This document shows, one piece after another, positions 947 to 20,615 of a stretch of DNA of 64,000 bases (position 1 is its first letter; every line of letters begins with the position of its first letter). This DNA comes from Acidobacteriota bacterium (GTDB lineage Bacteria > Acidobacteriota > Terriglobia > Terriglobales > SCQP01). The stretch is from the NCBI GenBank assembly GCA_021818955.1, contig JAKASR010000001.1:248001-312000 (forward strand), written 5' to 3'. Below the pieces are notes generated by a model. That model had not been told where the DNA came from and did no database searches. It worked only from the letters and a program-made list of their open reading frames with translations. Position numbers and translations under genes: made by a program.

Positions 947-1285
947 TTATCGCCTCGCTTTCGCTTCCAGGCGATAGGCTTCGACTTCGGAGATGGCGAT
1001 CAGGCCATCACCCATCATGGCTTCAATCGCGGGCAGCAGCCGCTCCAGCTTCTCGCGCCGGTCCACGATGGTGATGACGATGGGCAGGTCGGAGGAGCGC
1101 AGCCAGTGCGGGCGATGCACCAGCGAACTGGCGCCATAGCCTTCCACGCCGCGATAGACCACCGCCCGCTCGATCTCTTCCCGCCGGCAGGCTTCGAGAA
1201 TCGCCTCATGCAAGGGGCGCCCCTCCCAGCGGTCGTCTTCGCCGCAATGAATGCGCATCAGCCGCGCCTGGGGCACGGCCTTCAT
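947..1285 (-). CDS. DUF190 domain protein, single domain
   Basis: A 112-residue protein with the DUF190 pattern: an N-terminal beta strand (RLMRIHCGEDDRWEGRPLHE), then the region VYRGVEGYGASS and the C-terminal SDLPIVITIVDRREKLERLLP. DUF190 proteins have a PII-like ferredoxin fold and are often encoded beside CrcB/Fluc fluoride channels. It overlaps the upstream two-domain DUF190 gene by 4 bp (ATGA), so the two are probably translationally coupled. No crcB gene is visible in the window. Family assignment is fairly secure; the ligand and partner are not known. Confidence 0.8.
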   Translation of the reverse strand: MKAVPQARLMRIHCGEDDRWEGRPLHEAILEACRREEIERAVVYRGVEGYGASSLVHRPHWLRSSDLPIVITIVDRREKLERLLPAIEAMMGDGLIAISEVEAYRLEAKARR

Positions 1286-1998
1286 TCCGCCACTCCGTAG
1301 CGGATTACTTCCACCTCGGAAAGCACCGCCAGCGCGCCGTTCAGCATGGGCTCGAGCCGGTTCAGGATGTCCCGCACTTTGGCCTCGTGGTCCACCACCG
1401 AAATCATCTGCGGGCGGTCCTGGCCAAATCCCAGACCATGAAATTTTTCCGGGTGAGCCTGGTGATGGGCGCCGTAGCCGGCAATGCCGCGATAGATGGT
1501 CGCGCCGGCGGCGTCTGCCGATTGCAGCGCTTCCAGGATAGCGAGGTGCAACGGTTGGCCCTGCCAGCGGTCATGCTCGCTGCAGTAGATGCGCAGCAGT
1601 TTCGCCCGGCCTTCGATTTTGGCCGGAGGCGCCGCCGGCGCGGTTTCGCCCGCGGGCGATGGCGCCGCGCGCGGCGCCTCCGCCCGTTCGGCCGGCGTGA
1701 GCACAATCGTGGCCTGCGGCCCCGCCATTTCGCGCAGCTTGGGCAGCAAGGGCGGCACCTGCCCGGTTTCCGCCACAAACTCGATGCGCAAGGGCAAATG
1801 ATCGCTGGCCGCCAGCAGGTCGCCGCTGTGCATTTTATGCTCGGGACCGAAGCCGGCCAGGCCGCGTGTCGCCAGCGCCGAGGCCACCCCATGATGCATC
1901 AGGAAATTCAGGATGGCGGCGTAGGCGGGCGCGGCGTGGTAGTGCCGCGCTTCATCCATATAAATTACGACTTGCGTTTGCCGGGCTTCGCCGCTCAT
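1282..1998 (-). CDS. tandem DUF190 protein, two domains
   Basis: A 238-residue protein with two DUF190-like units joined by an Ala/Pro/Glu-rich linker (about residues 100-130). The C-terminal unit (LLRIYCSEHDRWQGQPLH, IYRGIAGYGAHHQ, RPQMISVVDHEAKVRDIL) is canonical and close to the downstream single-domain protein. The N-terminal unit (VVIYMDEARHYHAAPAY, ATRGLAGFGPEHK) is more divergent. With the overlapping downstream gene, three PII-like units come from one transcript, which would suit a trimer-type assembly in a PII-like fold; that is inference. The gene begins 124 bp from the zinc-ribbon gene on the same strand. Confidence 0.8.
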   Translation of the reverse strand: MSGEARQTQVVIYMDEARHYHAAPAYAAILNFLMHHGVASALATRGLAGFGPEHKMHSGDLLAASDHLPLRIEFVAETGQVPPLLPKLREMAGPQATIVLTPAERAEAPRAAPSPAGETAPAAPPAKIEGRAKLLRIYCSEHDRWQGQPLHLAILEALQSADAAGATIYRGIAGYGAHHQAHPEKFHGLGFGQDRPQMISVVDHEAKVRDILNRLEPMLNGALAVLSEVEVIRYGVAE

Positions 1999-2122: not shown

Positions 2123-2515
2123 TCAGGGCGTTTCGTTCCGCTTCCGCTGCAGACGGCTCAAGGCCAGCGCCGCGGCCCGGCGCGCGCGCAGCGTCTCGTG
2201 TTGCGCTGCCTGGCGCAGCAACGGCAGCGATTCGGCCTCGCCCAATTCTCCCAGGGCAAGCAGGGCCGCCTCGCGCACGTAGCCGTCCGGATCGCTTGCG
2301 GCAACCGCCTCGAGTGCCGCCACCGCGGCGGGAGTGGAATCCTTCTGCGCCAACAGGACGCAGGCCAGGCGGCGAACCGCCGCGCGCGGATGCCGCAAGG
2401 CGGCGATCAGCTTGGCCTCGAAAGCCTCCGGGCGCGGCGGCCGGCCGCAATGCGGGCATAACTCCACTGGAGTTTTCAGCTCGCGCCAGCATTGCATGCA
2501 GTATTCGCGCATCAT
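2123..2515 (-). CDS. zinc-ribbon plus HEAT-repeat protein
   Basis: A 130-residue protein. Residues 1-25 hold two CxxC pairs (CMQC and CPHC, Cys 6/9/20/23), a rubredoxin-type zinc ribbon. Residues about 28-125 form two to three HEAT-like helical repeats (AVRRLACVLLAQ, YVREAALLALGELG, RARRAAALALSRL), usually a protein-binding scaffold. The start is the first of two adjacent ATGs; the open frame runs further upstream but overlaps the preceding gene. It lies 40 bp downstream of the 150-residue helical protein on the same strand, so they probably share a transcript that diverges from the GTPase operon. Function unknown; an adaptor role for the cluster is a guess. Confidence 0.7.
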   Translation of the reverse strand: MMREYCMQCWRELKTPVELCPHCGRPPRPEAFEAKLIAALRHPRAAVRRLACVLLAQKDSTPAAVAALEAVAASDPDGYVREAALLALGELGEAESLPLLRQAAQHETLRARRAAALALSRLQRKRNETP

Positions 2516-2555
2516 CCTCGTCCGTCTCGTCCGTTTTCGCGAATCGGCGGCTGCC

Positions 2556-3008
2556 TCAGGCGGGATTGCGACCGCGCAGTTGCTCGAGCAATTCCCGAAT
2601 CGCGGCCAGCAGTTGGCGGTTTTCGAGTTCCAGGGCCCGTGCCTGCGCCGGGGAAAGCTCGCCATAGCCGCGCATGGCTTCCGCGCTCAACTCTTCGACC
2701 GCAACCTCGGCGCAGACCAGCGAAGTGCGAATTGCATGCAGCGCGCCGGTTTCCGCCGGGGGCCGGGCAATGCGCTGATGTTCGAGAATGCGCACGATCC
2801 GGGCGCGGATGCGCGCCAGCCCGGCTTCCAGCGCTGCCCATTGCGCCTCAGTCATATCGGGCCGATAACCGCTGCTGGCCGGCGCGGGGTTTTGCGCAGC
2901 GCGTCCAATCAATTCAATTTCGGCCAGCAGTCTTTCCAGGTTTTGCAGCGAGATCAACAGATGCCGCCGCTGTGATTCCGACAGCGGCGCGGCGCTAGCG
3001 GCTTCCAC
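2556..3008 (-). CDS. small all-helical protein, paralogue of the 6076-6534 product
   Basis: A 150-residue protein predicted almost entirely helical, without signal peptide or membrane segment. I choose a GTG start because AAGGAGG lies 9 nt upstream and because the resulting length matches the 152-residue protein at 6076-6534. Both share a layout: an N-terminal helix with L-x2-SLxxLE, a Tyr-x2-D/V-T-P/E-A turn near residue 45, an R-x-R helix, a segment ending LEEL/LLED near residue 105, and a final L-x6-L helix. These small proteins flank the dynamin-like GTPase and its ATPase partner. No known family is recognised. A longer ATG-started frame exists, but its extra residues are encoded by a dispersed repeat. 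Confidence 0.65.
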   Translation of the reverse strand: MEAASAAPLSESQRRHLLISLQNLERLLAEIELIGRAAQNPAPASSGYRPDMTEAQWAALEAGLARIRARIVRILEHQRIARPPAETGALHAIRTSLVCAEVAVEELSAEAMRGYGELSPAQARALELENRQLLAAIRELLEQLRGRNPA

Positions 3009-3036
3009 GGGTGACACCCTCCTTGAACGGCTTTGC

Positions 3037-3105
3037 GGCGGCTCGGCCGCTTTTATTTTTAGGCGCTGACGCTTTTGCAAACGTCCGGCCGAAGCCGGAC
3101 GCTTT
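3037..3105 (-). repeat. dispersed repeat, module B
   Basis: Read on the minus strand it has a GTCCGGnTTCGGCCGGAC hairpin-like head, then AAAGCGTCAGCGCCTA, then the tail AAAAGCGGCCGAGCCGCC. It lies directly upstream of the ribosome binding site of the helical protein gene. Other copies are at 22826, 28523, 37870 and 39366. Confidence 0.75.
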
Positions 3106-3138
3106 GTGAAAATTCATGGCTGCCAGGCATTGCCAGGC

Positions 3139-3157
3139 GCAATTCCTGCGGAATTGC
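3139..3157. repeat. dispersed repeat, module C palindrome
   Basis: GCAATTCC-TGC-GGAATTGC, a perfect 8-bp stem with a 3-nt loop. The same design occurs at 39312 and, in the variant GCAATTTC-GGA-GAAATTGC, at 34602, 34631 and 39221. Confidence 0.65.
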
Positions 3158-3220
3158 TTGGTTTTGTCGTTCATAGGCGCGGGACCTAACAGGAACTCCG
3201 CGCTTCGGCCTGCGATCTCG

Positions 3221-3258
3221 GACGAAAACTTCTGTCCGACTCGGCCGTTAACGCTTTA
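3221..3258 (-). repeat. dispersed repeat, module A
   Basis: On the minus strand: AAAGCGTTAACGGCCGAGTC followed by GGACAGAAGTTTTCGTCC. It differs from the copies at 39181 and 21144 by only a few bases. Confidence 0.75.
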
Positions 3259-3494
3259 GGAGCCATCAGCCCGCGCGGCGGGCGGTTGCGGTGGGCGCCA
3301 TCACCCTGGTTTACCGCATCATAACGCAATCCGCCCGTCCGTCCCAACAGGCGGCGATGGCCGTGTGCTGAGCATCGGCCGCTTTACCCGCCGCGGTATT
3401 TTTTCTATCATCGACTTACGGTGTTGGAGTTCACCGTCAACCGCCGCCAGCTTACGGCAGATGACTCCTACCAGCATGTTTGGGCGGTGAACTC

Positions 3495-5306
3495 ATGCCT
3501 TTTCCCGATACCGCGAGCGGGCCGCAACCGCGCCAGCTTGAAAATTGCGCCGCATCAACCCGGCCCGGCCCGGCAGAGCTCCCGCCGGCGGGCGCCGGCG
3601 AATCCGCGGCAATGACCATGTCCCCCGGCTTATACGGCCTGGCGCGCCTGGCGCGAGAAATGGGGGTGGAAAGTCTTGCGGCCGAAGCGGAAGACCTGGC
3701 CCTGCGCCGCGCGGAAGGACGCGTTTATCTGGCCTGCCTGGGACAATTCAAACGCGGCAAATCAACTTTGATCAATGCGCTGCTGGGTGAGCCGGTATTG
3801 CCTGCCGGCACCCTGCCGGTGACCGCCTTGGCGACGGTGGTGCGCTACGGCCCGCAGCCCCAGCTACGGATTCGCTCCCAGCAGGGCGAGTGGGAGACGG
3901 CGCCGCTGGCCCAACTGCCGGAATATGTCTCGCAAGCCGCCAACCCGGAAAACCGCCGCGGAATATCCGCGGTCGAGGTTTTGTTTCCCGCCCCCATTCT
4001 GGCCGGGGGCTTATGCCTGGTGGATACGCCCGGACCGGGCTCGATTTTTGCCGGCAATACTCGCGAGCTGCGCGATTTTCTGCCGCGCCTGGACGCGGCC
4101 TTGTTGGTCTTCGGCGCCGATCCGCCTTTGACGGGCGAAGAGCTGGAGTTGGCGGCGGCCGCCGCCAGCCATACGCGGGAATGGATTCTCGTCTTGAACA
4201 AAGCCGATCGGGCCACCCCCGAGGAAACCGCCGCCGCCGCCGCCTTCGCCCGCGAAAAACTGGAAGCCCGGCTGCAGCGCCGGCTGCCGCCGGTATGGAT
4301 GATCAGCGCCGGCGAGCAGTTAGCCGGCGCGCCCGCCCCGCAACGCGATTGGCTGCGGTTGTGGCGCCAATTACGGCTTTTGAGCCAAAACCCGGAATTG
4401 GCCCGGCAGTCGGCGCGGCGCGGTTTCCAGCGGATACGCCGCGAGTTGCAGGCGTTGTTGCAAGCAGAACGCGAAGCGCTGCGGCTGCCTCTGGCCGAGA
4501 GCCGGCGGCGGCTGGCGGAACTGGAAAAAACTGCGGCGGCGATCGAGCAATCGCTGCGCGAACTCGAGCCGCTGCTCGATGCCGAGCAAAAGCGCATGGC
4601 GGCGGTTTGGGCGGCCCGGCAGCGCGATTTTCTCCGGCAGGCCGGGCCGCAGGCGGACGCGCGGCTGGCGGCGGCGCTCGCCGGCAGGGCGCGGCTGCGC
4701 GGCCCGCGCCTTCGGCGCGCGCTTATGGCGGAAGCGCAGTCGATTGCGCGCGCGCTGGTGCAGCCTTGGCTGGCCTCCGAAGCCGAGACCGCCGATCGGG
4801 AATTGAACCAACTCAACCGCCACTGGCTGCAGCTGGCGGCCCGTCATTTCGCCGCGCTCGCGCGCTCCGGCGTGGCCGGACTGGCGCCCTCGGAAGAAAG
4901 CCTGGCGGCGGCGCCGGGGCTGGCGGGGCGCTCGCGTTTTATTTTTCACGAACAAATGGAAATTGCCGCCCCCGCCTCGCCGCTCCTTTGGCTGGCCGAT
5001 AGCCTGCGAGGCGCATTGCGCGTCCGCGGCGGCATCGAAGCCGATGCACGCGAATTTCTGCGGCAGTTGCTTGCCATCAATGCCAGCCGCGCGCTCCACG
5101 ATTTACGCGAACGGGCTCACTCCGGACGGCGCGATCTGGCGCGCGCCTTGCGCCAGCGCTTGCATGAAGGCTGGTGTTTGGCCCGGCAAACTTACACGCA
5201 TGCCCGCGGCGCGCAGGCGGCAGGCGAGCCGGCCCTGGCCGCGGCCCTGGCGCGGCTGGATCGCCTGGAGCAAGCGCTCCAGGCTCTGGAGACGCCGGCC
5301 CCATGA
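3495..5306 (+). CDS. bacterial dynamin-like GTPase
   Basis: A 603-residue protein with a complete dynamin-type G domain: P-loop GQFKRGKST (residues 83-91), switch I Thr in the LPAGTLPVT context (about 103-110), DTPGPGS (177-183) and NKAD (235-238). The pattern LP-x-G-x2-PVTA following the P-loop is typical of bacterial dynamin-like proteins. Residues about 300-600 are helical and Arg/Glu/Ala-rich, with predicted coiled coil near 320-375, like a dynamin stalk. No obvious membrane span or paddle is seen. The start is the ATG at 3495 with GGTGA upstream; a TTG at 3480 and ATGs at 3612/3618 are alternatives. It overlaps the next gene by 4 bp (ATGA). Probable role: nucleotide-driven membrane or oligomer remodelling. 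Confidence 0.85.
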   Translation: MPFPDTASGPQPRQLENCAASTRPGPAELPPAGAGESAAMTMSPGLYGLARLAREMGVESLAAEAEDLALRRAEGRVYLACLGQFKRGKSTLINALLGEPVLPAGTLPVTALATVVRYGPQPQLRIRSQQGEWETAPLAQLPEYVSQAANPENRRGISAVEVLFPAPILAGGLCLVDTPGPGSIFAGNTRELRDFLPRLDAALLVFGADPPLTGEELELAAAAASHTREWILVLNKADRATPEETAAAAAFAREKLEARLQRRLPPVWMISAGEQLAGAPAPQRDWLRLWRQLRLLSQNPELARQSARRGFQRIRRELQALLQAEREALRLPLAESRRRLAELEKTAAAIEQSLRELEPLLDAEQKRMAAVWAARQRDFLRQAGPQADARLAAALAGRARLRGPRLRRALMAEAQSIARALVQPWLASEAETADRELNQLNRHWLQLAARHFAALARSGVAGLAPSEESLAAAPGLAGRSRFIFHEQMEIAAPASPLLWLADSLRGALRVRGGIEADAREFLRQLLAINASRALHDLRERAHSGRRDLARALRQRLHEGWCLARQTYTHARGAQAAGEPALAAALARLDRLEQALQALETPAP

Positions 5307-6079
5307 ACGAATGCGCTGCGCCTGCGCTCGCCGAACTCCTGGAGCGGGAGACGGCCATCGCGCGCCTGCGAAGCGCTCTCGCCGCGGGCGCCAATCTGCT
5401 GGTGCATGCGCCCGCGGGCATGGGCAAAACCGCCTTGTTGCGCCGCGGCCTGCCTCTCGCCCCGCGGCCCCTCTTCTGCGCGGGCGCGGCGCCGGCCGCA
5501 ATTTACGGCCAGGCGCTCGCAGCTTTGCAGGCGCTGGGCGACGCCTGCGTGGCCTCCCTGCTGGCCGCGCGCGGCCTGCAAGCCGCCGATCTGCCGCGCC
5601 TGCCCAGCTTCAGCCGCCGCGGCTGGCTGGAAAAAGCGCTCGCCGGCGGCCGCTATTGCCTGGTGCTAGACCCCGCGCCGCGAGCCTCGGCCGCCTTTGC
5701 CCGGCAACTCACCGACCTGCTGCGCCGTACTCAAACCCCGCTGGTGTGCGCCGCGCCGGCGGATTCCAGCGATTATGTGGGAGCGTTAATCAGCTTGTTT
5801 CCTTTTCGGGAAAATCGCCTGGCCCTGTTGCCGCTCTCCCCGGCCACCGCGCGGCAGTTCATGCAGGCACGTTTGCAGCAAGCCGGCGTCAGCCAGGCCG
5901 AAGCGCGCGAGGTCATGCGGCAATTGCTGCCGCTGGCGCATGGCGCGCCGGGCAGGATTGAGCAATTTGCGCGCTTGGCGGCCGAGGCGCGTTATCGCCG
6001 TCCGGAAGGCTTGAAGCTGCACAGCCTGTATCTGGATGTGCTGATGGCCTCCGCGCCGGCAAAAGGACGGAAAACATGA
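5303..6079 (+). CDS. P-loop (AAA/STAND-like) ATPase coupled to the GTPase
   Basis: A 258-residue protein with Walker A APAGMGKT (residues 36-43) after an LLERETAIARLRSAL segment, the usual entry to AAA_16/STAND-type ATPase domains. The likely Walker B is CLVLDP (119-124): the Asp is followed by Pro rather than the catalytic Glu of classical AAA+ proteins. PLVCAAPADSS may be sensor 1. The C-terminal helices (about 190-250) could form a lid. The ATG sits inside the GTPase stop (ATGA) and the gene overlaps the following one the same way, so the three products are probably made in fixed proportion. Two nucleotidases in one unit suggests a regulated assembly. The frame is open upstream within the GTPase gene but coupling favours this start. 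Confidence 0.75.
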   Translation: MNECAAPALAELLERETAIARLRSALAAGANLLVHAPAGMGKTALLRRGLPLAPRPLFCAGAAPAAIYGQALAALQALGDACVASLLAARGLQAADLPRLPSFSRRGWLEKALAGGRYCLVLDPAPRASAAFARQLTDLLRRTQTPLVCAAPADSSDYVGALISLFPFRENRLALLPLSPATARQFMQARLQQAGVSQAEAREVMRQLLPLAHGAPGRIEQFARLAAEARYRRPEGLKLHSLYLDVLMASAPAKGRKT

Positions 6080-6534
6080 GCGGCTTGAATGAAAACCATC
6101 GCTTGCGCCTCGGCGTGGTGCTGTACAGCCTGGAAAAAGCTTGCGAGCGCATCGAAGCCGCCCTCAACGATGCCCCGCGCCCGGCGGCGCTAACCTACCA
6201 TACTTACGATGACGTCACGCCCGCCGAGCGGGAAGACTTGCGGCGGATCGCCGCCGCGCTGCGTGCTCGCCTCGAAGCGTTCCGCCAGGAGTTCGATCTG
6301 CCCCGCCAGCAACGCCACTTGCGCCGCAGCCTGGCCGCCGAGTTGGCTACCCTCTGGATGCTGTTGGAAGATACCCACGCCCGCAAACTCACCGGCCGCG
6401 GCGCCATCCCGCCAGAGGAGGCTAACCGCATTAATCGGCATGTGGACGCGCTGCTGGAACTGCTGACGCCCGCCATGCGCCGTCTGAACCAGCCGATGCG
6501 GGCGGAGGCAAATTCTGAAGAGGCTAAAAGTTGA
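6076..6534 (+). CDS. small all-helical protein, paralogue of the 2556-3008 product
   Basis: A 152-residue helical protein starting at an ATG that overlaps the ATPase stop (ATGA). It aligns over its length with the divergent 150-residue protein: LYSLEKACERIEAAL against LQNLERLLAEIELI, YDDVTPAEREDLRRI against YRPDMTEAQWAALEAG, and MLLEDTHARKLTGRG against VAVEELSAEAMRGYG. No signal peptide, membrane segment or catalytic motif is seen. It ends the GTPase-ATPase operon and may be a structural or regulatory subunit of that complex. Family unknown. Confidence 0.7.
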   Translation: MSGLNENHRLRLGVVLYSLEKACERIEAALNDAPRPAALTYHTYDDVTPAEREDLRRIAAALRARLEAFRQEFDLPRQQRHLRRSLAAELATLWMLLEDTHARKLTGRGAIPPEEANRINRHVDALLELLTPAMRRLNQPMRAEANSEEAKS

Positions 6535-14805: not shown

Positions 14806-16773
14806 TTACAGCAGCTCCCGTTCCTCGCCCACCCGCCGCGTGACTCTTTGGCGATCGAGGTATTCGAGCAGCGGGATGGCGAATTTGCGGCTGACGCCGG
14901 CCAGTTGCTTAAAATCGGCCACGCTCAGCCGCCGCGAGCGGGTTTTGTGCTCTTCCAGCCGCCGGCGCAGCTCCGCCAGCGCGCCGGCATCGAGCAGCAT
15001 CTCGGGCGCGATCGGCACCAGGCGTTTTTCGCGCACCAGCATCTGCAGCAGCCGGCGCGCCCGCGCCGGCTCCAGACCCAGCGCCGCCAGCGCCGCGGCC
15101 GTGGCCGGCGGTTCCAATCCGGCGGTGCGGTAGCCGGCGCCGAGCTTTTCCAGCGCCGCCTCATCCGCGGCGCTCAACTGCGAGCCGCGGCCGGGAAGCT
15201 GATACAGCCCTTCCCGCGCGCTCACGCGCTGCCCGGCCAGCAGCCGGTCCGCCTCTTGCTGAAATCCGTGGAGCGAAGGCATGGGCGCCCGGATTGCCGC
15301 CCGGCGGCGCCACTCTTCCGCGCTGATGCCCGGCAGCAGCGGCTGCTCGCGGTGCCATGCCTCGAGCGCTTCCAGCATGGCGCGCGCGCGGGCCTCGACT
15401 CCGGCCGCCAGCCGCCAGCTTGCGCCGGCGCGCGTCAGCGCATGGCCGTGCTCGCCGGCTTCAAGCGCCGCGGCAATCTCCGCCGCTCCCCAGCCGGTGC
15501 GCCGGCCCAGCGCCGCCGCCTCCAGCCCTTCCGGCTCGGCCTGTTCGATCAACAAGCGTATCTGCCGCCGCGCCGCTTCCGCCGCCGGCTGCATTGCGGC
15601 GGCGGCCTGCCAGGCGCGCAGCCACTCCAGATGCGCGGGCGTGCGCCGCGCCCGTCGCGGCCGCGCTTCCAGCACCACCCCGCCGCCCAGCGTGACCGCG
15701 GGTGAAAACTGGCGCAGGATGAAGCGATCGCCCGGCACGAGCGGCAAGGGAACCCGCAGCCGCAACTCCGCCAGCCGGCGTGCCCCCGGCTCCAGCCGCC
15801 CGCCTTCCAGCGGCGCGATGCCGGCCGCGGGCGAGGCGCTATAGGCGTGCAAGTGTACGGTGGCGTGCGGCTTCAGCGGACGCGCCGTGGCCAGCAGCTC
15901 GACTTCCGCGTAGATCGCGGACGCCGGCTCAAACGCCTCCGGCGGCACGGCAAACAAGCCGCGCCGCAGCTCGGCGGCTTCGATGCCGGCCAGGTTGAGC
16001 GCCGTGCGCTCGCCCGCCTGCGCCCGTTCCACCGCCGCGCCGTGCACCTCCAGGCCGCGCACCCGCCGCCGCTCGCGCTCCAGCCGCGCGGCTTCGGCCG
16101 GCTCGCCGCCCAGCAGCGCGATTTCATCGCCTCGCGCGATCGTGCCGCTAATCAGCGTCCCGGTGACCACCGCGCCAAAACCTTTCAGGCTGAAGGCGCG
16201 GTCAATCGGCAGCCGGAACGGACGCTCAACTCGCCGCGGCGGCGCCATGGACGCCAGCCGCGCCAGCGCCGCCCGCAGCTCCGGCAATCCGGCCCCGGTG
16301 CGCGCGCTGACCGCGATCCGCGGCGCGTCTTCGAGAAAAGTGCCGCGCAGCAGTTCGTCGATTTCCAGCCGCGCCAGCGCCTGCGTCTCCTCATCCGCCA
16401 GATCGCATTTGGTGAGCGCGACCAGCCCGTGCTCCACCCCCAGCAGCCGGCAGATTTCGAAATGTTCGCGCGTCTGCGGCTGCACCCCCGCGTCGGCCGC
16501 CACCACCAGCAGCACCAGATCGATGCCGCCAATGCCGGCCAGCATGTTGGCCACGAAGCGTTCGTGGCCGGGCACGTCGATGAAGCTGAGCCGCGCCGCT
16601 TCGCCCCCTTCCGCCGGGGCGGGCAAATCGCAATGCGCAAACCCCAGGTCGATCGTGATGCCGCGCCGGCGCTCCTCTGCCAGCCGGTCCGGATGCGTGC
16701 CGGTCAGCGCTTCCACCAGCGCGCTTTTGCCATGGTCGATGTGCCCGGCGGTGCCGGCGATAACGGAGTGCAT
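14806..16773 (-). CDS. selB: selenocysteine-specific elongation factor SelB
   Basis: A 655-residue SelB that delivers Sec-tRNA(Sec) at UGA codons with a SECIS element. G domain: GHIDHGKS (residues 10-17), DVPGHE (66-71) and TKCD (121-124), followed by EF-Tu-like domains 2 and 3 ([36 protein letters not shown]). Winged-helix modules fill the C-terminal half to [25 protein letters not shown], which is trimmed here by its family-typical end. Length fits the bacterial family. No selA, selD, tRNA(Sec) or obvious selenoprotein is in the window. It lies 98 bp beyond the ArsR regulator's upstream region on the same strand. Confidence 0.93.
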
Positions 16774-17900: not shown

Positions 17901-19100
17901 GTGATGATGGGTGCGGGTGTGCCTGTTCGTGGATGCGAAGCCAGCCTGGCTTCATCGCTTCGCTTGCAAGTTCTGCAAGGCCTTCCTCCCGACTGTCCCG
18001 TTCTCTCGTCCGCCTGCGATATCGTCAACCAGCTTCCGGTCGCAACCCTGCTCTACGATCTCGGCAGCTTGCATGTGCTGGCGGTCAATCCCGCGCTTGA
18101 GCATCTTACCGGGTATTGCCGGCAGGAGTTGCTGGCGCTCGATCTGCCCGCGTTGATTGTGACGCCGCTTGAGCAGTTGCATGCTCGCCGCGATCGTCTC
18201 CAGTGCGATTTTTATTTGGATGCCGGTCCCTGCCAGTTGCGCGCCAAAAATGGCGAGTTGATCGATGTCGAACGCAGCTTGAGCCTGCTGCGGTTGGATC
18301 ACCGTCAGGTCGGCTGTAAGGTGATATTCGATATCCGCGAGCGGCTGCGCTTGGAAGCGGAGTATCGACAGGCGCAAAAAATGGAAGTCTTAGGCCAGTT
18401 GTCGAGCGGGGTGGCTCACGATTTCAACAATCTATTAACCATTATCCTTGGGCAAATAGATTTGATGTACGATGCTCCGGATTGTCCGGATAGCCTGCGA
18501 AGCCGGGCGGCGATGGTGCGTGATGCCGCCGGACGCGCGGCGGATCTCACCCGCCGGTTGCTGGCTTATAGCCGCCGCCAGCATGCCAGCCCGCTCGTGC
18601 AGGATCTCATCCCCCTGGTCGCCAATACCGCTAAGCTGGCGCAGCCACTGCTGGGATCCGCCATTCAGTTGCACTTGCAGCTTCCCCCCGCGCCTTGTTT
18701 GGCCCGGGTGGATGGTGGAGAGTTGGCGCAAGTTATCCTCAATCTGGTGATCAATGCCCGTGACGCCATGCCCCGAGGCGGCGTCATCGACTGTGCCGTC
18801 GAAGCGCGGTCTTTATTGCAGCCCGGCCCGGCGGTGGGCGGTATCGTGCCCGCGGGCGACTATATTCAGCTCACCGTCTCCGATACTGGCGCCGGGATCG
18901 CGCCCGAGATGCTGTCCCGCATCTTTGAGCCTTTCTTCAGCACTAAGGGCGACAAGGGCACCGGCTTAGGGCTCTCCACGGTCCAGGCAATCGTGCACCG
19001 TTGCGGCGGTTTCCTCCGCGTGCAAAGCCGGGTTGGGCAGGGAACGCGTTTCGAAATCCTGCTGCCGCATGTGTTAATGGCCGCATCGGGTGGCAGTTAA
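17901..19100 (+). CDS. PAS-domain sensor histidine kinase (first of a tandem pair)
   Basis: A 399-residue soluble kinase. A PAS domain covers about residues 45-145 (VNPALEHLTGYCRQELLALDL; DIRERLRLEAEYRQAQKMEVLG is the classic PAS-HK linker). The H box is VAHDFNNLLT (His173), then N box NLVINARDAMPRGG, G1 DTGAGI, F box IFEPFFSTK and G2 GTGLGLS. No membrane segment, so the signal is probably cytoplasmic. The start is GTG at 17901 or ATG at 17904. No response regulator follows. It is a close paralogue of the next gene, and its last codons fall in a degenerate copy of repeat A. Confidence 0.9.
   Translation: MMMGAGVPVRGCEASLASSLRLQVLQGLPPDCPVLSSACDIVNQLPVATLLYDLGSLHVLAVNPALEHLTGYCRQELLALDLPALIVTPLEQLHARRDRLQCDFYLDAGPCQLRAKNGELIDVERSLSLLRLDHRQVGCKVIFDIRERLRLEAEYRQAQKMEVLGQLSSGVAHDFNNLLTIILGQIDLMYDAPDCPDSLRSRAAMVRDAAGRAADLTRRLLAYSRRQHASPLVQDLIPLVANTAKLAQPLLGSAIQLHLQLPPAPCLARVDGGELAQVILNLVINARDAMPRGGVIDCAVEARSLLQPGPAVGGIVPAGDYIQLTVSDTGAGIAPEMLSRIFEPFFSTKGDKGTGLGLSTVQAIVHRCGGFLRVQSRVGQGTRFEILLPHVLMAASGGS
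19071..19098 (+). repeat. degenerate repeat A overlapping the kinase stop
   Basis: GTGTTAATGGCCGCATCGGG then TGGCAGTT matches module A at most positions. It encodes the last residues (VLMAASGGS) and abuts the TAA of the first PAS kinase. Confidence 0.5.
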
Positions 19101-19439: not shown

Positions 19440-20615
19440 ATGAGACAAAGCTTACCCCCCATCCTGAATTTGCTGCCCCGGCACGGAATGCCGGACGCTT
19501 GTCCCGTTCTAAATTCAGGCTGCGACATAATTAACCAGCTCACCGAACCGATGTTGATGACCGACAGCGTTAGCTTGCGCATTCTGACCGCCAACCCCGC
19601 CTTGCAAATGCTCACCGGCTACTCCTTGCGCGAGCTGCGGATGCTGACCTATACGCAACTGGTGATGTTGCCGCCGGAAGAAATTTTTAAAAACCGCGAT
19701 CAATTGCTGGGCCAGAGCGTGATGGAAGCCGGGCCGGCTAAGATCCGCGCCAAGGATGGGACGGCGATTGATATGGAGCGCAGTCTCAGCCTGGTTAAGT
19801 TTGACGGACAGTCCGCCATCTGCGTTGTCATTCGCGACATCCGCCAGCGCTTGCGCCTGGAAGAAGAATGCCTGCAGGCGCAAAAAATGGAAGCTTTGGG
19901 CCGGCTCGCCGGCGGCGTCGCGCATGACTGCAATAACCTGCTGACTATTATTCAGGGTCAATTGGAGCTGGTGTTTCAGGATCCCTTGCTGGCGCCATCC
20001 TGCATCTCTCGCTTGCACATGATTCGCGAAGCGGCTCAGCAGTCGGCGAAGCTCACCCATCAGTTGCTCACTTTGGGGCGCAAGCGGGAACCCATTCTTC
20101 AAGTGCAGGATTTGCGCGCCATTGTCCGCGATTTTACCCTCATGGCTCAAACCATTGCCGGACAGCTCGTGGACTTTCAAGTGGAGCTTGATCCCCGCCC
20201 CTGCCTGGCGCGCGTGGAAGCTTTCGAAATTGGGCAGGTGATCATGAATCTGGTCGCCAATGCGCGCGATGCCATGCCGCGGGGCGGCGGGCTCAAGCTG
20301 GCCGTCGCCCATTGCGAACTCTCCGCCCCCTTGGAGGCCTTCAGCCTGCGCCTGCCGCCCGGCGCTTATTGTGTGCTCTCGGCGCGCGACACCGGCGTCG
20401 GCATTGCGGCGGAAATCCAATCGCATATTTTCGATCCTTATTTCACCACCAAAGGCGAGCACGGCACCGGGCTCGGCCTTTCCATTGTCTATGCCATTGC
20501 CCGGCAAAGCGGCGGCGCGGTGCGGGTCGAAAGCCGCCCAGGCCGGGGGTCGGCGTTTGAAATCTATTTGCCCGCGGTGCCGCCCGAAAGCGTTAACGGC
20601 CAAGGCGGGCAATAG
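19440..20615 (+). CDS. PAS-domain sensor histidine kinase (second of a tandem pair)
   Basis: A 391-residue paralogue of the preceding kinase with matching layout: CPVLNSGCDIINQL (about 21-34), PAS (about 40-135), linker RQRLRLEEECLQAQKMEALG, H box VAHDCNNLLT (His162), N box NLVANARDAMPRGG, G1 DTGVGI, G2 GTGLGLS. The H box has Cys where the family normally has Phe, next to the phospho-acceptor His; catalytic boxes are otherwise intact. No response regulator is adjacent, so both probably phosphorylate distant partners. The final residues and TAG stop lie inside a copy of repeat A. Confidence 0.9.
   Translation: MRQSLPPILNLLPRHGMPDACPVLNSGCDIINQLTEPMLMTDSVSLRILTANPALQMLTGYSLRELRMLTYTQLVMLPPEEIFKNRDQLLGQSVMEAGPAKIRAKDGTAIDMERSLSLVKFDGQSAICVVIRDIRQRLRLEEECLQAQKMEALGRLAGGVAHDCNNLLTIIQGQLELVFQDPLLAPSCISRLHMIREAAQQSAKLTHQLLTLGRKREPILQVQDLRAIVRDFTLMAQTIAGQLVDFQVELDPRPCLARVEAFEIGQVIMNLVANARDAMPRGGGLKLAVAHCELSAPLEAFSLRLPPGAYCVLSARDTGVGIAAEIQSHIFDPYFTTKGEHGTGLGLSIVYAIARQSGGAVRVESRPGRGSAFEIYLPAVPPESVNGQGGQ

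Follow-up and report, generated by a model that had tools for sequence, protein, structure and literature searches.

A probable fluoride-resistance locus in an Acidobacteriota bacterium: riboswitch-headed operons around a dynamin-like GTPase

What is the role of a bacterial dynamin that is encoded next to a P-loop ATPase and small helical proteins? This question is raised by a divergent five-gene cluster in the window, i.e. the whole stretch of 64,000 nucleotides analysed here, from a soil bacterium with Acidobacteriota relatives (genome assembly 3.8 Mb). An earlier note on this DNA recognised no described system with such a set of genes, and we found none either. The note overlooked two intergenic fluoride riboswitches, two adjacent DUF190 genes and with them the theme of fluoride resistance. 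Below we argue that this is probably a fluoride-resistance locus, where riboswitches would switch two operons and a dynamin machine may act on the membrane.

Genes A and B on the minus strand diverge from C, D and E on the plus strand. The arrangement given in the note is correct: all five genes are present, and so are both ATGA overlaps of 4 bp (C/D at 5303-5306, D/E at 6076-6079). Neither B nor E has a Pfam match above cut-off. Two DUF190 genes are found left of A, and in the gap between them and A no terminator was found; they probably share an operon with B-A. The coding genes are:

947-1285, minus strand: second DUF190 protein (PF02641, E 1e-30), 4-bp overlap with the DUF190 gene at 1282-1998
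1282-1998, minus strand: DUF190 protein with two DUF190 stretches, PII-like (PF02641, E 1e-48; PF00543 P-II, E 1e-6)
2123-2515, minus strand: A, zinc ribbon and HEAT repeats (likely start MMREYC at 2515; Pfam HEAT_2, E 2e-14)
2556-3008, minus strand: B, helical protein (GTG start, AAGGAGG before it)
3495-5306, plus strand: C, dynamin-like GTPase (start ATG 3495 or alternative ATG 3612)
5303-6079, plus strand: D, small AAA/STAND-like P-loop ATPase (AAA_16, 30.4 bits, just below the cut-off of 32.6)
6076-6534, plus strand: E, helical protein, distant relative of B

Elsewhere in the window, the neighbouring ORFs at 17904-19100 and 19440-20615 have similar N-termini (CPVLxSxCDIxNQL) and are probably tandem duplicates. 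By eye, the ORF at 14806-16773 resembles the selenocysteine-specific elongation factor SelB, and selenoproteins may therefore be made by this bacterium.

The region between the operons contains two divergent fluoride riboswitches, both above the Rfam gathering score. Since the matches are on both strands, both operons are headed by fluoride sensors, and each riboswitch has a promoter-like site immediately upstream. The regulatory features are:

3250-3314, minus strand: fluoride riboswitch aptamer heading B-A (RF01734, 46.4 bits, gathering 34, E 2e-10)
3318-3347, minus strand: promoter-like site TTGGGA-18-TATGAT (consensus scan, 9/12)
3383-3411, plus strand: promoter-like site TTTACC-17-TATCAT (consensus scan, 9/12)
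3411-3477, plus strand: fluoride riboswitch aptamer heading C-D-E (RF01734, 43.6 bits, gathering 34, E 2e-9)
3427-3436, plus strand: GAGTTCACCG within the plus-strand aptamer, a 10-nt perfect complement of 3485-3494
3485-3494, plus strand: CGGTGAACTC, the complement of GAGTTCACCG, with the Shine-Dalgarno sequence GGTGA and abutting the ATG 3495 of C

The complementarity between GAGTTCACCG and CGGTGAACTC is significant by shuffling (p 0.0005), and in the ligand-free fold of the plus-strand leader positions 3486-3493 are paired with a probability of about 1. In the absence of fluoride the riboswitch core would thus pair with the ribosome-binding site of C. As the bases of GAGTTCACCG also build the aptamer stem and the pseudoknot, folding of the pseudoknot upon fluoride binding should free the start site. 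Sequestering of the Shine-Dalgarno sequence is not enriched among 135 related riboswitches; it is therefore rejected as a general expression platform and proposed for the plus strand of the window alone. On the minus strand the GTG start of B follows a leader of 242 nt, in which no switch was identified. Read by eye, the pseudoknot of the minus-strand aptamer contains one C.U mismatch, and one U-A pair in it is replaced by C-G.

In the whole genome there are three fluoride-riboswitch matches, two at the locus and a weak one. The third, at 30.1 bits, is below the threshold and lies 78 nt upstream of the matched stretch of the only CrcB gene of the genome (G000:C29:182126-182635; loci L022 and L025), which is on a different contig from the dynamin locus. 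Apparently CrcB is also behind a fluoride riboswitch in this genome.

The pairing of dynamin and riboswitch is not limited to the window. We searched 396 Acidobacteriota genomes and counted strong matches (E < 1e-25) as close relatives of C. A fluoride riboswitch is found within 12 kb of the close relatives in 36 of 43 cases, but in none of the 23 cases of distant dynamin matches (Fisher p 6e-12; the genomes are related and not independent, so the p-values overstate the significance, but the contrast is still stark). In 33 of these 36 cases the dynamin gene is on the same strand and less than 6 kb downstream of the riboswitch. At the level of these 396 genomes the association between dynamin and riboswitch is 37/38 versus 96/358. 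Seen from the riboswitches, about 32 of the 150 listed from Acidobacteriota precede a dynamin within 6 kb on the same strand. In nearby genomes the relatives of C are found beside genes for CrcB, DUF190, a Na+/H+ exchanger, Usp and a metallophosphoesterase, and every such region has a fluoride riboswitch, except one at a contig edge.

A second collection consists of 80 loci from Acidobacteriota, Myxococcales, Binatia, Chthonomonadales and others. Here an upstream riboswitch on the same strand is present in 61 of the 80 loci, the remainder being mostly on short contigs, and all 48 genomes tested with the Rfam model contain a riboswitch. The number of loci with each family, out of 89, is 50 for DUF190, 42 for D, 37 for CrcB, 22 for enolase, 18 for B/E, 18 for metallophosphoesterase, 17 for Usp, 15 for the Na+/H+ exchanger, 13 for a HEAT protein, 11 for pyrophosphatase and 10 for A; since the loci were picked for the dynamin, these counts describe its company and not the whole fluoride regulon. 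Genes described behind fluoride riboswitches include enolase, pyrophosphatase, UspA, Na+/H+ antiporters and formate hydrogenlyase (PMC11139923, PMC5533749). Known fluoride genes accordingly accompany the dynamin in the relatives, whereas in the window itself DUF190 alone is adjacent.

The pairing is also seen on plasmids. In Burkholderia cenocepacia and B. multivorans the dynamin is inside a DUF190-pyrophosphatase-MutS-enolase-hydrogenase island. Four riboswitches were found in the B. cenocepacia region; one is 0.8 kb upstream of the dynamin gene. An unknown 206-aa protein between a fluoride riboswitch and the dynamin on the B. cenocepacia plasmid (L172:5717-6337) was considered as a homologue of B and rejected as unrelated. 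On a Lichenicola plasmid the dynamin is divergent from a riboswitch-crcB-usp unit. In contrast, a cyanobacterial plasmid with a dynamin pair has no fluoride riboswitch.

Two other observations concern these neighbourhoods. Two Candidatus Sulfotelmatobacter MAGs, G437 (L092/L163) and G442 (L100), have 20 and 21 fluoride-riboswitch matches in dense islands, where most genomes have 1-6. Further, two cysteine-containing families recur in fluoride clusters (L015:6390-6965, L141:4025-5571 and relatives); the first, of about 190 aa and found in 18 loci, has no Pfam match, and the other is DUF6062.

Whether the five genes form a unit can be judged from the same loci. The earlier note named rare co-occurrence elsewhere as something that would refute its reading; co-occurrence is indeed rare for the exact A-B-C-D-E set, which among the 89 loci is found in the window only, but not for its sub-modules. 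C-D-E are together also in L014, L015, L121, L127, L128 and L135, genes of the B type are beside C in L016, L015, L131, L134 and others, and 9 further loci hold relatives of A, almost all of them together with fluoride riboswitches. The conserved core is the pairing of a fluoride riboswitch with a dynamin, and D, B or E, A, DUF190 and CrcB are recurring modules.

Taken together, the riboswitches, the layout and the recurrent company of fluoride genes make it very likely that the cluster belongs to the fluoride regulon; its genes would then be induced by fluoride in the cell. The regulation and the gene company further point to a role in fluoride tolerance, for which the probability is also high.

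As the note had proposed, C is a dynamin-like GTPase. It has a Pfam Dynamin_N domain (82.6 bits, cut-off 27, E 4e-23), the motifs G1, G3 and G4 (GQFKRGKS, DTPG and NKAD), and an AlphaFold model (pLDDT 85.6) with a globular G domain and a long helical stalk that ends in a tip. The tip carries a conserved helix of the PASPL type, which is only moderately hydrophobic, and C has no membrane-spanning segment. By sequence and predicted fold C is a canonical bacterial dynamin-like protein, whose best Foldseek matches are IniA, BDLP, Cj-DLP and mitofusins. The top match (E 9e-19, 19% identity over the aligned part) is IniA, the mycobacterial dynamin with its partners in the ini operon. IniA shares the dynamin fold with C and is stress-induced (PMC6715688), but its inducers are drugs and its partners differ. 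Among viral contigs we found a single fragmentary match, and a viral link was rejected.

Three groups can be distinguished among the fluoride-linked dynamins. C belongs to type 1, with about 590 aa; type 2 is about 697 aa long and has an additional N-terminal domain, and type 3 has about 573 aa. The Campylobacter jejuni proteins Cj-DLP1 and Cj-DLP2 resemble types 1 and 2 in that a shorter dynamin adjoins a longer one, the longer being extended by a further N-terminal domain. In C. jejuni an additional N-terminal domain of one of the two contacts its partner, and the complex so formed tethers membranes (PMC6104087). Acting in pairs is common among known bacterial dynamins (PMC6104087), but the window has one, of type 1 only. 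Two dynamin genes side by side are absent in the genome of the window and present in relatives, e.g. L013, L017 and L092.

B matches the N-terminal domain of type 2 dynamins (hhalign 100%, E 1e-42) and is, judged from the sequence, a free-standing relative of it. Genes for B and for type 2 dynamins are mutually exclusive by locus: 33 and 11 loci have one of them and none has both (p 0.006). That they are never found in the same locus suggests that B is the in-trans counterpart of what type 2 dynamins contain in cis. The predicted model of B (pLDDT 86) has no significant match among PDB folds, including the assembly domain of Cj-DLP1. Homology between B and that domain was therefore not adopted, and an assembly role of B is an analogy of position.

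The other small protein, E, falls into one protein cluster with B and their relatives, although the two are only about 22% identical, in line with the earlier description of two related small proteins. Genes of the E type are directly 3' of D in 7/7 loci. D has a conserved Walker A GKT and Walker B Asp; the Glu that usually follows this Asp as the catalytic acid is absent.

How could these proteins act against fluoride? Two divergent riboswitches would sense intracellular fluoride and switch on C-D-E and B-A, probably with the two DUF190 genes. The induced C would then use its stalk tip to act on the cytoplasmic membrane, with B as a probable assembly partner and D and E as a probable nucleotide-driven regulator. 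Such a machine could remodel, tether or seal the membrane and thereby let the cell survive when HF enters and ion gradients are lost; the export of fluoride would be left to CrcB, which is encoded elsewhere. That C works on membranes is suggested by its membership of the dynamin family and is put forward tentatively. A dynamin arm of fluoride resistance, in which riboswitches induce dynamins and these, helped by split-domain and ATPase partners, protect the bacterial membrane from HF by remodelling or sealing it, is conceivable, if somewhat more doubtful.

The main rival is that C and D regulate or assemble the fluoride channel and the Na+/H+ antiporter, and with the DUF190 proteins gate or cluster transporters by nucleotide state. 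PII proteins regulate transporters, DUF190 is PII-like, and genes for DUF190, CrcB and the antiporter adjoin the dynamin in many loci. However, CrcB is on another contig in this genome, and many loci (L121, L154, L148) have the dynamin directly after the riboswitch in a unit without a transporter. We consider this explanation unlikely.

It is quite improbable that C and D are spare or sacrificial nucleotide binders. Aluminium or magnesium fluoride mimics phosphate and traps enzymes, so more of them would be made, or the metal-fluoride would be bound. Consistent with this, the known fluoride targets enolase and pyrophosphatase are in the same regulon, and the structure of Cj-DLP1 was solved with GDP.AlF4 (PMC6104087). 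Ordinary GTPases, on the other hand, are absent from the regulon. Further, the genome encodes no full-length dynamin besides C, so C does not back up a housekeeping copy.

Finally, an envelope-stress or anti-phage system under incidental fluoride control is extremely improbable: dynamins such as IniA do act under envelope stress (PMC6715688), and the PADLOC profile for LeoA of the E. coli dynamins LeoABC matches C (E 2e-11), but this similarity is generic, at superfamily level, LeoBC is not significant (E 0.17), no defence genes are nearby, riboswitches are directly upstream on both strands and near 0/23 dynamins of other families, and the dynamin recurs with fluoride genes across phyla. The phage-defence role considered in the note is thus not supported.

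Among the closest described systems are the resistance operons behind fluoride riboswitches (crcB motif). The ppaC-uspA-eno-gpmA-crcB operon of Enterobacter cloacae FRM (PMC5533749) also has a fluoride riboswitch in front, and the relatives of our cluster have crcB, eno, pyrophosphatase, uspA and antiporter genes in common with operons of its type. However, the dynamin, D, B/E and A are absent among the fluoride genes named in the literature that we found, and the window has no adjacent crcB. We found no paper that joins fluoride, riboswitch and dynamin, or fluoride riboswitch and DUF190; the gene-association tables of Baker et al. 2012 were outside the search and may list such genes.

In the existing description, cells resist fluoride by exporting it, by controlling pH and by having spare copies of the enzymes that it inhibits (PMC11139923). 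If the reading is true, membrane remodelling would be a new layer of fluoride defence beside export and spare enzymes, and C would be a bacterial dynamin whose inducer is sensed directly by RNA. D, B/E, A and DUF190, so far unknown proteins, would find their place in one stress response. Many orphan bacterial dynamins would gain a defined inducer, making the question of their purpose directly testable. Our results suggest that dynamins are an unrecognised part of bacterial defence against fluoride poisoning.
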